From assembly GCF_042453785.1 (NCBI RefSeq), contig NC_091668.1, positions 29,079,501-29,143,500 on the forward strand: DNA of 64,000 nt, written 5' to 3'. The notes below the pieces were generated by a model, which saw only the letters and a program-made list of their open reading frames with translations, had not been told where the DNA came from and did no database searches. The DNA is from Malus domestica (lineage: Eukaryota; Streptophyta; Magnoliopsida; Rosales; Rosaceae). The position numbers and the translations under genes were made by a program. Each line of letters starts with the position of its first letter. Position 1 is the stretch's first letter. Shown here in pieces: positions 11,684 through 30,605 of this stretch.

Positions 11684-12550
11684 TTCCGAAGATTCGAAAC
11701 TCTTACTCTACGTTTTGAATCTTACAGAGTACGTGGTTGCATGTTCTTCAAGTATCCTGCTTAGGGCTGAAACTTGTTTCAGTGGGTCGAGTGACAGAGA
11801 AGTTATCGAGAGCCTTGCAGCTAACTGGGAGCGCGTCTTGCTGCGTTGTTTGAAGCATGTCTGTCTCATTAACAACGGCCTTGCCTTCCAACATGGCTGC
11901 AGAAAAACCTGCCAGGAATATGTTGCTTCTGCTGTTGAGAATAGCAGCGGACCGCGGTTCATATCGAAGGCCTATGCCGTTGTGACTTGTGAAGCGAATT
12001 ACAGACAAGGTGATCGTGTCATGGATGATGAGGACGGAAATTGAAGATGTATTGCTTGTGCACCGGTTCTCACATCTTATTCGATCAAAGCCTCAAGAGT
12101 CTGCCGAGCGAGGGTTTAAGGTTTAGGGTTTAGGGTTTTCGATTTATTTATATTTTGGTTTGTGACGGTCATGTATTAATAATACATGACCATCCCTGAA
12201 CAGTTGACAATATAAGCTGCTTGCTCAGGACTCCGAGTATATAAATAATAGACACATATTTTCAAGTATATACAATTGAATTGCATTAAATATTAAACAA
12301 TTTATGAGAGACAATGTTCGTTAGCTTGGACTGTATTTAGTCCAAATCATACAAACTTAACTACTATGCACCTACGCTGTCCTAGAGTTCATTCAAAATT
12401 TCCATATTTTTCTTATAATTTACATCATTATTTTTTTTTTTCTTCAAACTTTTGTCGATATCTGACATTTTATCGATACCTCGGTCGAAGCTTCCATGTT
12501 TTTGGATCTACGACAATTTCCACAAGTACAGATATTTAAGACGACCTTAA
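11684..12550. other. Intergenic, with an interstitial telomere-type motif
   Basis: The open frame ending at 12044 has no recognisable homology. At 12111-12138 the sequence AGGGTTTAAGGTTTAGGG continues as two perfect TTTAGGG units, the plant telomere repeat, here as a short interstitial or telo-box tract. The rest is AT-rich and carries no gene I can support. Confidence 0.5.
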
Positions 12551-25400: not shown

Positions 25401-26908
25401 TTGAAGGGCATCTGGGAATTTCCCTCTCTTTCTCTTTCTTTCTTTCAGTCTAAAGAGAACATAATCGATCCAAGGAAGAAGAAGAAGAAGAAGAAGAGGA
25501 AGGTGGAAGATGTGAGGGACAAGTGTTCATGGTGGGCATCGCCCTGTTTCAACCCTCTTTCCTTTTCTTTTTACTCTCTCTCTCTCTCCAGTTCAAACCA
25601 CACTGTCACTTGACAAGTCGCACAATAGTCTATCCTTATTGCTTCTTATATATATATATTTTTTTTTTACGAAGAATATTATTATTTCAAAATATCTCTA
25701 TTAATTTCTATTAGTTAATGAATTCTTTTTGTCAATTATTTTTTTTAAGAAGAATATTATTATTCCAAAATATCTATATTAATTTCTATTAATTAATAAA
25801 ACTCTCTTTATCAACTAAAAGAAAGTGAAAAAATTATTTTGTCTTCTATCACACATAAAAAATGATAGGCAATAATGTAATTTTACAATTTCAAATTTTA
25901 CTGTTTTTTATTGAAACCTCACATACGGATGATGTTAAAATATCTCAAATATTTAAAATTAAAACAAAAACAAAAATCTCACACCCCCCACGTTCTCTCT
26001 CTCCCTCTCTCCTTCTCATTTTTCTAAAAAAATTGTGTTCATAATGTTCATGCACACAAAGTGTGTAGGCAAATGCTAGTATTATATTAAGTATGTGTTT
26101 ATTGCAACGAATTATCTCGAATTAGATTAATTTCAGGAACTAATATGTACTTGTCAGACTAAGAAGCATAATAGTAATAAATAATAAAAAAAACAACCCT
26201 TTATATATAATAAAATATTCATGTTATTTGCTTAAACTTCTATTTCCACCAACGTCAAAATTTTCAACTAAAATATTATGATTGACTCGTTGCGGGACTT
26301 AACTCAAATTTCTCATTCTTACTGTAAGTATATTATCATATTTAAAAATAAATTTTACAATGAACTAAAGAAAAATAGAGAGGTTAAACTCAAAGCACAG
26401 TAAGAAAGTCTTGAATACGGTACAATCAACCAGTCTTTTTTATATTATATTATTGTTATGTTTAGGCTACCGAACGTTGAGAAGAAGCAAAGATGAAAAG
26501 AAAGTGGGAGAGCATAAAGATTAAAAAGAGATGAAGAAGGTATTGATGGATAATATTTTATAAAAGTTAGAAGAAAAGAAAAATGCTCCATCCACCATGA
26601 ATTGAATTTGAAATGTTGATATGATCCATATTGATAGGGATTTTCATCAGTAACACTAATTTATTATTATGATGGGAATACTTTTGTTCTCTGCTCTTAA
26701 ATAATGGTGATGATCACTATCATATTTATTACCTTAAATTTTGAAATTTATGTAGTGAATAGGCAAAAATCTTAAAATTTAAACTTGTCAAATGGTAATA
26801 TGTATGGTGGTCAACATTACCAAGTGTAATAATACAATTGGTATGCTCAAAACGTGGTTGGGAATACAAAACTTGAAATTAAAAAAATTCAACCAGATGT
26901 ATCATGAC
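25401..26908. other. Promoter of copy 2, then AT-rich intergenic DNA
   Basis: The first 200 bases contain a GAA-rich 5' UTR (AAGAAGAAGAAG) and a CT-rich promoter tract, as in copy 1. At about 25671-25822 a 77-base unit is tandemly doubled (GAAGAATATTATTATT...CTATTAATTTCTATTA). The rest is AT-rich without gene signals. Confidence 0.55.
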
Positions 26909-28610
26909 CAAGGAAGAAAATATCGGTAATATCGGAAATATCAGTAGTCCAAAAACACAGAAATATCGGGATAATATTGATATCGATAAAAACTACATGG
27001 AAACCATGGAAATTGTAAAAAAAACTTGGAAATTTTTAATGAAACTTTGCAGGATGTTTATTTAGTCAATTATCTATTAGTTTATCACAAAAAATTGGAA
27101 GGAAATGCATTGCATGATGGATTTAACTGATTTAAGTTGATTATATAGCGAGCTGGCAAACATTGTGAGTGTAGAAAATATGTAGTAATTAATGAAAGAA
27201 GTTTAAACACACCATAATCATTTATATATAATTAATTAGTACAATATTGGGAGGTTTTATTTAGGATATTAAAAAAAAAAATAGGAAGTGAATAAAATGA
27301 TGAAGAATAATGTGCCGAATTTGACACTTTAAATTTCTTACACATAAGCATGCGTCTAGGAGTTGAAGTTCCAAATTATAGTATATCAATTAACGATTGA
27401 AAATCAATACGTTGAATAAGACCAAACTTTAATTTGGATGCCGATTATGTTTTTTCAAGTTTATATAAAGTAAAAGAATTGAATTTTGGAAGCCAGGAGT
27501 GTGTCAATTGTTTTATAATTTGTCCGAATACATATATCAGGTTGCTACTCAACGTAATTTGAAAGTATATCTAGTGCAAGGACTTGTCTTTTTTTGTTGA
27601 TAAGCAAAGGGTTTGTAGCTTTTTTTGCTAAGCAATAGAACATATTATGTTTGTTTAATCTTTAGCATTTAATCGTTGTCCACAAATATAGGATAGAAGG
27701 CCCCAAATTAGATCTGGCTCTTAAGTCTTACCTAGTTGGAGTCACAAGTTCACATGTACCAGCCCTCGCAAGTCGCAGCAAAACGTTTTGGTTTTTGTAA
27801 TCCCACCATTGGCGGACCTAGAATTTTTGGTGAGGAGGGGCCTCTCATAAAGGTTTTTTTTTTTTTTTTTAAGCGGATGGTATTTACAAGGCTAATATAT
27901 ATCTCAAAATCAAATATTCAAAACAACATATGCACATATAATATTACATACACACAAAAATTATAATTGTTCTTGACGAGTTTTTATATTTTAAAATCGT
28001 TTTATTATAATCCCGCTGCCTATACTATTATGTAGAATAGAGAAATAAAAACTTTACAAACCATAACTCTCATGTAATATGTAGAATAGAGAATAAACGA
28101 TAGAGAAACAAAGAAATTTAAAACTTATTTGTTGAATAAATTTCGAATTTAGGATTATAAAATGTATGAGATTTCAAAAAGAAAAGGGTAATTTTTTTTT
28201 TATTTTCATAATTAAAATTGAATGTTTTCTATTCAAAGAAATGCGAAATATTGCTTTGATTTTAAATGCTATTAATTTGTGTTAAGGAGATAGCTAGTAG
28301 GGCTGGGTTCGGTTCTTATCGGTTCGGTTTTTTGCCAAAATCGAAACCAAACCGAAATTTCGGTTCGGTTCGGTTCGGCTCAAATTTTTTTCGGTTCGGT
28401 TTTTTTTTCGGTTCGGTTTTTTCGGTTCGGTTTCGGTTTTTTTTCGGTTTTTTTTTTTTTTTTCCTCCAAAAAATGCAAAACAACCACAACATTAAGCAA
28501 TTACAGCTCGCATAGAACCAGTCTCCCACGAGGCTCACGAGCAAGCAACAGACCCGTAGATATGCCAACCTAAAAGAACAATAATATACAACTTGTTAAT
28601 TCCTAATAAC

Positions 28611-28867
28611 CTCAATTGTGGTCTTGTTTTGCAAAGTGAGGTAGATATGCCAACCTAAAAGAACACTCAGCGCCACACATAAGGGAACTAGCAACAGCCC
28701 AGAAATGACCTGAAACTTGAAAAGAGAAAAATGATAAGCAAGCTGTCTTGTATCCAAGTATCAAACATAAACCCAACTCTTAACCTTACATATGCAGTTT
28801 GAAAAGAGTCTCCAGTTTCCTGGTCTTCTTTTTCGGGATCATAAGTTAGGCTACCGACGAGCAAAAC
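28611..28867 (-). pseudogene. Captured DHHC palmitoyltransferase exons
   Basis: Exon a (28867-28790, 26 codons) encodes VLLVGSLTYDPEKEDQ to SFQTAY. Exon b (28709-28611, 33 codons) encodes VISGLLLVPLCVALSV and LLGWHIYLTLQNKTTIE. Together they cover the third/fourth membrane-span region of plant PAT15/16-type S-acyltransferases, just after the DHHC domain. The intervening 80-base intron is retained with normal splice sites, so the capture was at DNA level and not from spliced RNA. The preceding DHHC exons and the following YHEGVRA-type exon are absent. A 25-base piece of exon b (28641-28665) is repeated at 28556-28580, a scar of the capture or a later rearrangement. Confidence 0.85.
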
Positions 28868-29207
28868 CTGAAAGTTTAATCGCAGATCCAATGTTAAACA
28901 GGATGAAATAAATAAAGGAAAAGAAAGAAAATTATATCTTAAGCATTGACCATCTTTTCACTACAAAGAGAGTCACCTTCTATGACTCCATCGAAAAGAC
29001 AAACACAACACAACACAACAAAAATTAAAGAAATCAATCACAAACCATTTACGATATCTTCACGAAATCAAGCACAAAATCTAAATATTGAATCGCATAC
29101 ACTAACAGCAAATCAATAACCCAAAATCCCTAAATCTAGAAAACCCTAAGTTACTCTTCCTAAATCCCTAAAATTGAATACCTTTTGATTGAGAGAGAAT
29201 AGGGGAT

Positions 29208-29432
29208 GCCACAGGGTCAGAACGCTCGCAGCCATGGGGATGGGTGCTGGAGCCAGAGGGAGGACTGAGAGAGAAGAGGGGTTGCCGCAGGGTTACCACG
29301 CTCGCAGCCATGGGGATGGGTGTGTTGGAGGCAGAGGGAGGACTGAGAGAGAAGAAGGGTTGCTGCAGGGTCTGCACGCTCGCAGTCATGGGGATCGGTG
29401 TTGGAGCCAGAGGGAGGACTGAGAGAGAAGAG
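29208..29432. repeat. Three-unit tandem repeat (~74 bp) in the inner hAT element
   Basis: Each unit contains CACGCTCGCAGCCATGGGGA (or a one-base variant) followed by GGAGCCAGAGGGAGGACTGA and GAGAGAAGAGG. The frames through it are low-complexity and do not look like a protein. It may derive from the promoter or leader of the captured gene. Confidence 0.85.
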
Positions 29433-30022
29433 GGGACGAGAGAGAGAAGAGGGAGAAATTGGAGGCATGGAGGAAGTCTGGAGGTGTGGCTGCGCTAGGG
29501 AACGAGAGAGAGAGATGAGGGGAATGACAATTACAAATAGAAAAAGTGTGGCTGCTAGGGTTTTGTTGATTTGGTTATAAAAATTAAAAAAAATCTCCAA
29601 AATCCGGGGGGCATGAAGAGGTTTCGAACCCATGCGCTCCACCAACTTGGAAAGTTTCACTAAAACCAACTTCACAACAAGTTATGTTTTGTTATAATTG
29701 TATGACTAAACTATTTATAAACATTGAAAAAAATAATTAAATATATATATCGGTTCGGTTCAGTTCGGTTCGGTTTTCGAACCTCAAAAACCGAAACCGA
29801 ACTGGGCAGATTCGGTTCGGTTCGGTTTGAGAGATTCGGTTGGTTTTTTTTTCGGTTCGGTTTTTTTCGGCTTCGGTCCGGTTTGGTTTTCGGTTTTTTT
29901 CGGTTTTCGGTTTTTTGAACCCACCCCTAATAGCTAGATAAAATATTAAAGCTAATTGGGAGATGGGTTTATGCTTGAAACTTGGAAAGCAGGACTTGAA
30001 GCAATAGAAAGATGCATAATTC

Positions 30023-30063
<41 letters not shown>

Positions 30064-30157
30064 TTAGAAAGCAAGCAATAGAAAGATGCATAATTCCCTA
30101 ATATATATATATATATTTGTTTTAGAAAGCCAAGACCTTTACTCCCTCCGCCGGTGA

Positions 30158-30311
30158 ATCCCACATCACCCACGCAAGCGCAGTGAGCAAGCAAACATGC
30201 CTATAAAAGCCACATTCCCAAGCTTGGTTTCTGTAATCCCACATCGCCCACGCAAGGGCAGTGAGCAAGCACACATGCCTATAAAAGCCACATTCCCAAG
30301 CTGAGGAAAGC
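30158..30311 (+). promoter_or_regulatory. Doubled plant snRNA promoter (USE + TATA)
   Basis: Two near-identical modules occur in tandem. Module 1 has the upstream sequence element ATCCCACATCA (30158-30168) and TATAAAA (30202-30208). Module 2 has ATCCCACATCG (30236-30246), an exact match to the plant USE consensus RTCCCACATCG, and TATAAAA (30280-30286). In both the gap between USE and TATA is 33 bases, the spacing known to specify RNA polymerase II snRNA genes in plants. Module 2 places the expected start about 32 bases after TATA, exactly where U2-like sequence begins. Confidence 0.85.
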
Positions 30312-30358
30312 ATGCCTTGCTCGGCCCTTTTGGCTAAGATCAAGTGTAGTTATCTGTT
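30312..30358 (+). pseudogene. 5' fragment of U2 snRNA
   Basis: ATGCCTTGCTCGGCCC followed by TTTTGGCTAAGATCAAG and TGTAGTTATCTGTT matches the first ~45 nucleotides of plant U2 snRNA, with substitutions and two one-base additions. One addition falls in the branch-site recognition element (canonical GUAGUA reads GTAGTTA). Homology then stops abruptly, without the Sm site or stem-loops III/IV. It cannot be a functional U2 gene. It lies inside the outer hAT-like element, directly before its right subterminal repeats. Confidence 0.85.
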
Positions 30359-30605
30359 GAGGCTTCTCAGCGTTTTTTAAATATTTTTGGGTTTTGATCT
30401 CACGATATTATAAAAAATATCGCGATAGTTTCGGAAATATCGTGATATTATCGATAGTTTTGAAAATATCGTGATATTATCGATAATATCGCGATATTTA
30501 GACGAAAACCAATTGGATACCTATTAAAATATCGTTACCGTGAAAAACCAATAATATCGGCGAAATATCGCCGATATTATCGGCATTTTCTTCCTTGATC
30601 ATGAC

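Follow-up and report, generated by a model that had tools for sequence, protein, structure and literature searches.

Nested hAT-like elements with a doubled snRNA promoter module

The window analysed here, a stretch of 64,000 nucleotides of Malus domestica DNA, contains three hAT-like elements nested one within another, each with its own 8-bp target-site duplication (TSD). Towards the right end of the outer element lie two promoter modules, each consisting of a USE and a TATA box, followed by the 5' part of a U2 snRNA sequence. The features are as follows.

26901-26908, no strand: left TSD ATCATGAC, identical to the 8 bases on the right side
26909-30597, plus strand: outer non-autonomous hAT-like element, 3,689 bp, delimited by TIR, 8-bp TSD and homology boundaries across copies
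27807-30156, no strand: second hAT-like element (W), ends CATTGGCGGA and TCCGCCGGTG, TSD AATCCCAC at 27799-27806 and 30157-30164
28298-29929, no strand: third nested element, ends TAGGGCTGGGTTC and GAACCCACCCCTA, TSD ATAGCTAG at 28290-28297 and 29930-29937
30158-30168, plus strand: upstream USE ATCCCACATCA, one mismatch to RTCCCACATCG
30202-30209, plus strand: upstream TATA box TATAAAAG, gap from USE 33
30236-30246, plus strand: downstream USE ATCCCACATCG, exact match to RTCCCACATCG
30280-30287, plus strand: downstream TATA box TATAAAAG, gap from USE 33 and distance to U2 core 43
30312-30358, plus strand: U2 snRNA nt 1-47, from the Rfam U2 model and alignment to U2 genes
30359-30597, plus strand: tail past the U2 fragment, with GAGGCTTCTCAGC, AT-rich TATCGCGATA repeats and the right TIR; no strict 3' box
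30598-30605, no strand: right TSD ATCATGAC, the same 8 bases as on the left

The outer element starts with CAAGGAAGAAAAT and ends with ATTTTCTTCCTTG; in another subfamily the ends are CAAGGTATTAAATAT and ATATTTAAAACCTTG. CAAGG at these ends agrees with the rule for hAT ends, and 8-bp TSDs are a feature of hAT transposons. An all-against-all comparison of 33 loci placed in the same orientation gave sharp common ends. TSDs were scored by script in the 27 of 39 elements for which both ends were located, and were perfect in 21, matched at 7/8 positions in five and at 5/8 in one; the window copy belongs to the other 12 and has a perfect TSD when taken at full length. The inverted ends and the 8-bp TSDs agree with the hAT-like identity given to the outer element in the initial annotation. 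The 27 measured copies range from 1.06 to 1.80 kb with the exception of L016 (0.69 kb), and the window copy is longer because the second and third elements are nested inside it. Judged by their length, mostly 1-2 kb, the elements are probably too short to hold the usual hAT transposase.

Element W landed in a USE, and the eight duplicated bases (AATCCCAC) rebuilt that USE on the right (downstream) side. The right junction of W is found in eight other copies (L002-L007, L009 and L010) and the left junction in L002 and L004-L007; the composite has therefore been mobile as a single unit. The third element is absent from L002. In the eight copies that share the nested insertion, the upstream USE reads ATCCCACATCG. 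Elsewhere in the window, positions 12388-12542 on the minus strand are about 64-68% similar to the left end of the element, with no USE nearby, and may be the remnant of a related element.

The two modules of the window copy form a 68-nt direct repeat with 96% identity, 78 bp apart. They had been described as a complete doubled module with a spacing of 33; this spacing is found in both, but the upstream USE, with its one mismatch, is not fully intact.

The sequence at 30312-30358 scores 42.9 bits against the Rfam U2 model (E 1.8e-7 in a search of 401 bases). As the Rfam gathering score is 46, a search of the whole window at the gathering threshold lists no hit; ten module loci searched at that threshold also gave none. 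The good fit to the model is limited to approximately the first 47 positions, and the sequence leaves U2 past TATCTGTT. Both Rfam and the alignment thus place the truncation at about 47 nt, as originally proposed, and the RNA beyond it (stem II, the Sm site and the later stems) is absent from the fragment. The retained piece has an inserted C in the region of stem-loop I and an inserted T that interrupts the branch-recognition motif GUAGUA, giving GTAGTTATC in the window versus GTAGTATC in the U2 genes L087, L088 and L090 of the same genome; the earlier observation of a damaged motif is therefore correct. Several other subfamilies have GTAGTATGTG, in which GUAGUA is retained and the next bases are altered. 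The U2 piece points outward, starting 286 bp and ending 239 bp before the end of the outer element at 30597, just inside its right end as had been noted.

The module recurs across copies of the element family

We read 39 elements in total. Of these, 33, including the window copy, were fetched through similarity to the module, and for this reason another six were picked from the best left ends that were absent from the module list. The module is present in 39/39 elements, including, in diverged form, 6/6 of those picked by their left end. The search for the U2 core allowed up to 6 edits; L099 needed 5 and L100 needed 6. A USE-like box precedes the U2-like core in every element. The TATA box follows at a gap of 33 in 37/39; the gap is 32 in L099, and L096 has TTTAAA, which was left unscored. 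The distance from the TATA box to the U2 core is 43 in 36/39 elements, the same as in the U2 gene L087. In nine of the 39 (L007, L009, L011, L013, L017, L022, L085, L096 and L097), a box next to U2 is damaged.

Matches to the left end give the same picture. Among the best 40, 25 are on C1-C10. A correctly oriented module follows downstream of 23 among these 25, and 20 of the 23 modules were found by the family-specific promoter pattern itself, in matches listed as far as C10:40.9 Mb. The initial annotation had asked whether other copies of the outer element share the module, which they do, and it had suggested that the transposon spreads a snRNA promoter, which holds at the level of DNA, the module being present at many sites. 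A local event confined to this copy, the outcome that would have spoken against that suggestion, is rejected since the module recurs in other copies of the family.

Among 100 listed exact matches to the 26-bp left end on C1-C5, at least 30 have a module by three narrow patterns, and 0/100 have one in the opposite direction. The left end is therefore commoner than the detectable module, and many family members may lack the module or have lost it. Across the genome, the 26-base pattern for the left end is matched 1,232 times at up to 3 mismatches and never when reversed; by hand comparison the right ends, reversed, also fit this pattern, so 1,232 is not a count of elements.

The six elements L095-L100, compared with L002, L008, L018, L019, L030 and L054, are about 89-98% alike in their left parts and about 66-90% alike in their right parts with the module, where the likeness is lowest against types other than L054. 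The left and right halves seem to differ in history, as if ends had been exchanged.

Genome-wide counts and USE-TATA spacing

The family-specific promoter pattern, in which the gap between the boxes was free to vary from 20 to 46, has 200 matches in the genome and none when reversed. Among the 100 matches listed of these 200, the gap is 33 in 80, 32 in 19 and 30 in one. The 100 listed matches include tandem units; minus nine neighbours, they correspond to 91 places, distributed over 89 sites with a separation of at least 2 kb. A more general USE+TATA pattern with a free gap of 20-50 gave 232 matches in 651 Mb versus a single match when reversed, and these 232 take in classes other than the family. 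A 34-base pattern composed of the end of the USE and the spacer gave 124 matches and none reversed.

According to excerpts of PMC9845283, the plant USE has the consensus RTCCCACATCG and lies upstream of the TATA box, and the spacing in Pol II snRNA promoters exceeds that of U6/U3 genes by one helical turn. The modules in the window, at 33 in both, conform to the Pol II type; the gap in the U2 gene L087 is 31. We considered a Pol III reading and rejected it on the basis of the gap of 33, given the shorter U6/U3 spacing in the same excerpts (PMC9845283).

The genome also contains a large class with a USE, a gap of 32 and TATAAAAG, with a spacer like ACCGCGGACAAAAGCTGGAGACTCTCCTCAAC; examples are C6:9091123, C4:6650683 and C7:525946-545840, where six lie within 20 kb. 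This class may represent a further family of snRNA genes or a further repeat with a snRNA promoter.

Comparison with the U2 genes of the genome

We read eight U2 stretches (L087-L094) out of 41 U2 matches in the genome, all eight among the ten best. The alignment with the 39 elements covered four of them (L087, L088, L090 and L094) and excluded the other four (L089, L091, L092 and L093). Over the USE, the surroundings of the TATA box and U2 nt 1-47, the four aligned genes agree with the elements; past this point they diverge. An exact USE+TATA pair was found by script in only one of the eight stretches, L087, with its gap of 31. The 16 elements displayed all have CTTG in place of the CTTT of U2, followed by a GAG..TTCTCA tail, and from these common features we infer a single capture.

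Outside the boxes, the promoters of the elements and of the genes are less alike. In the spacer, the fraction of differing sites is 0.577 between the elements and the four U2 genes, compared with 0.359 among the genes themselves; in the leader, the corresponding values are 0.463 and 0.215. These differences exceed those from gene to gene, and the donor is therefore not among the four aligned U2 genes. Part of the promoter may have changed since, or it may have come from a U2 gene outside those read.

We then compared the parts of the module among subfamilies. Across 20 of the 39 elements in six groups, the mean between-subfamily difference is 0.088 in the USE, 0.050 in the TATA box, 0.170 in the spacer, 0.160 in the leader, 0.165 in the U2 part, 0.230 in the tail and 0.590 in the 20 bases upstream. 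The boxes are less variable than the spacer and leader (p 0.016 in 39 copies and p 0.002 in the six left-end copies, both uncorrected for relatedness). For the boxes against the U2 part, the values are p 0.054 and 0.027, respectively, again uncorrected for relatedness.

Several U2-like loci resemble the elements more closely. At C4:20685477-20685778, C1:32328760-32328999 and C6:18918865-18919191, the printed spacer is GTGAGCAAGCAAACAG or close to it, much nearer that of the element. A further U2-like locus, C8:8154807-8155099, has the same box pattern, and the C4 and C8 loci each contain two promoter matches 61 bp apart. These four loci possibly represent the donor type or a sister family. One of the stretches left out of the alignment, L091 (C11:4025270-4025720), is a U2 copy with no exact USE in the stretch read and a run of A at its end; it is likely a U2 retropseudogene.

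Tandem arrays of the promoter part

The number of modules between located ends varies among the 27 copies. There are two in L008, L013 and L015, three in L014, L016 and L017, seven tandem promoter units in L018 (C10:18614061-18614783) and one unit in the other 20. The term doubled, used in the initial annotation, thus fits the window copy with its two modules and does not extend to the family, where copies have 1, 2, 3 or 7. In the sequences looked at, it is the promoter part that has been multiplied, not the U2 part.

The 3' box and the predicted transcript

The plant snRNA 3' box has the consensus CAN3-10AGTNNAA in excerpts of PMC545797. No strict match to it occurs between 30312 and the end of the element at 30597, in keeping with the earlier claim that transcripts would lack the U2 3' processing signals. 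A strict 3' box lies within 286 nt in 7/39 copies. Six of these (L012, L029, L051, L054, L056 and L084) share CATTTGGATAGTTAAA, 106-164 nt after the U2 start, and the seventh (L098) has its match in flanking DNA. By a hand estimate, CATTTGGATAGTTAAA is compatible with a chance match in AT-rich DNA, or it could end a short transcript. For comparison, 4/7 of the U2 gene stretches tested contain a strict 3' box.

In any copy that is open, the snRNA machinery of the plant would be predicted to start transcription at the base equivalent to U2 +1, position 30312 in the window. From the gap of 33, Pol II rather than Pol III would be expected, by the spacing described in the excerpts of PMC9845283. 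The predicted transcript would run 286 nt to the end of the element and may then enter flanking DNA; such read-through out of the right end is suggested because the 3' part of U2 and a strict 3' box are missing.

Probable capture of a U2 gene part by a hAT element and competing explanations

We consider it very probable that a non-autonomous hAT element captured the 5' part of a U2 gene, most likely once, and spread the promoter, as a passenger and a potential outward promoter. The DNA anatomy, that of a hAT family with a captured gene fragment and a Pol II-type snRNA promoter as its cargo, is well supported: the TSDs, the U2 identity, the common position in the copies read and the number and spacing of the boxes are direct observations. 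As for the course of events, a hAT element would have taken in, most likely in one event, the first 47 or so nt of a U2-type snRNA gene together with the USE, TATA box and leader of that gene, and would then have diversified into subfamilies. A hAT transposase acting in trans would have moved the element and carried the promoter to many sites, and in one sublineage the promoter part would have been tandemly duplicated to two, three and up to seven units. The U2 piece itself is most likely a passenger and potential outward promoter, often decaying or silenced.

Several features of the family would also suit a captured snRNA promoter that is functional and under selection in the transposon, where, for example, a transcript pointing outward or a right end with open chromatin would aid amplification and the tandem duplications would strengthen the promoter. 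The USE and the TATA box are less variable than the stretch that separates them, 99/100 promoters among the matches listed have a gap of 32-33, and in elements such as L095 and L100 the gap is still 33 although the spacer contains a single deletion as well as a single insertion. Moreover, promoter units and not the U2 piece have been multiplied, up to seven-fold. However, shared ancestry alone would preserve the spacing, the gap-32 set is also numerous (19/100 among the matches listed), in 10/39 copies a box is broken or the gap differs from 33, and the tests of box variation do not correct for relatedness. We therefore regard selection for a functional promoter as unlikely. Somewhat less probable again is a working promoter that has been kept and multiplied, in which SNAPc-type initiation close to the right end would give short capped outward transcripts or an open end, leading to amplification and to neighbour genes driven by a snRNA promoter. 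If true, one lineage would now be building arrays of up to seven units.

The remaining explanations concern how the U2 sequence and the hAT ends came together. The U2-like loci C4:20685538, C1:32328949, C6:18918865 and C8:8154868 share the box pattern, with a spacer like GTGAGCAAGCAAACAG where printed (not C8), and could be taken to mean that the direction is reversed, the family consisting of decayed U2 genes or U2 pseudogenes that happen to carry hAT ends. The 8-bp TSDs, the hAT-type inverted ends and the approximately 430-900 bp of shared non-U2 sequence upstream of the module in the copies are instead those of DNA-transposon movement and make this origin highly improbable. The U2 block could also have entered this copy later and separately, which the initial annotation had named as an outcome against its proposal. 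It could have come as a retrocopied or SINE-like U2 piece, for example, and the likely retropseudogene L091 suggests that such copies exist in the genome. A retrocopy would not bring a USE and a TATA box, though, and the block lies upstream of the right end in 39/39 elements from several subfamilies, and no TSD was seen around it there by eye; we give a separate insertion hardly any credence. Finally, a chance pair of promoter-like motifs in an AT-rich element gains some colour from the USE scan of the window alone, which is near chance (two matches at up to one mismatch, a number reached in 24/100 shuffles). The adjoining U2 match, a spacing close to the one in a U2 gene and the numbers of matches across the genome (200 and 232, compared with 0 and 1 for the reversed patterns) leave chance a negligible probability, and the pairing is refuted as accidental by the alignment of both the boxes and the U2 part with the genome's own U2 genes.

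Relation to known systems

Capture by a hAT element, our preferred reading, has partial parallels. Like a plant U2 snRNA gene of the Pol II type, the element has a USE, then a TATA box, then U2 nt 1-47, and its TATA-to-U2 distance equals that of L087. Unlike such a gene, it stops at about 47 nt without the remainder of U2, its GUAGUA is damaged, the window copy has no strict 3' box, most of the spacer differs from the four aligned genes, and the gap is 33 versus 31 in L087. With plant non-autonomous hAT elements and hAT MITEs it shares short inverted ends, 8-bp TSDs, a length of mostly 1-2 kb and a large number of copies, but this family is set apart by its cargo near one end, a promoter plus a portion of a Pol II non-coding RNA gene.

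Pack-MULEs and other TIR transposons are cases in which host gene fragments are captured and multiplied by a non-autonomous DNA transposon; the cargo here is the promoter and 5' end of a snRNA gene rather than protein-coding exons. Also comparable, as mobile or copied snRNA, are SINEs derived from snRNAs and retropseudogenes of U2. Both are retrocopies that lack the upstream promoter, whereas here a DNA transposon carries it. Excerpts of PMC4640811 describe Utopia, a group of U2-gene-targeting non-LTR retrotransposons that insert into U2 genes. Utopia is likewise a mobile element tied to U2 genes, but in our case part of a U2 gene lies inside a DNA transposon.

No report of a plant DNA transposon carrying a snRNA promoter was found among the titles and abstract openings listed, from a body of literature that excludes most subscription journals. 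The word snRNA has no occurrence in the available portions of a research paper on Rosaceae transposons (PMC11197308) and a review of plant MITEs (PMC12595863). This absence is weak evidence of novelty. Transposons with protein-coding gene fragments are familiar; a compact snRNA promoter with intact-looking boxes, multiplied by a DNA transposon, is unusual. The family provides a natural experiment on snRNA promoters out of context, concerning which of them fire, what stops a transcript without a 3' box, silencing and the rewiring of neighbour genes, and the arrays of 1, 2, 3 and 7 units make dose effects testable in one genome. For annotation, it serves as a warning that a transposon can be the carrier of USE+TATA pairs and of weak U2 hits in this genome.

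Proximity to hAT transposase domains

We scored 150 of 1,495 candidate hAT dimerisation domains. Among the 91 module positions on C1-C10, two lie within 12 kb of one of the 150 scored domains. One domain, at C9:33122788-33123048, is located 4.0 kb upstream of the module at C9:33118744 on the same strand; it may lie there by chance or mark an autonomous partner of the family.
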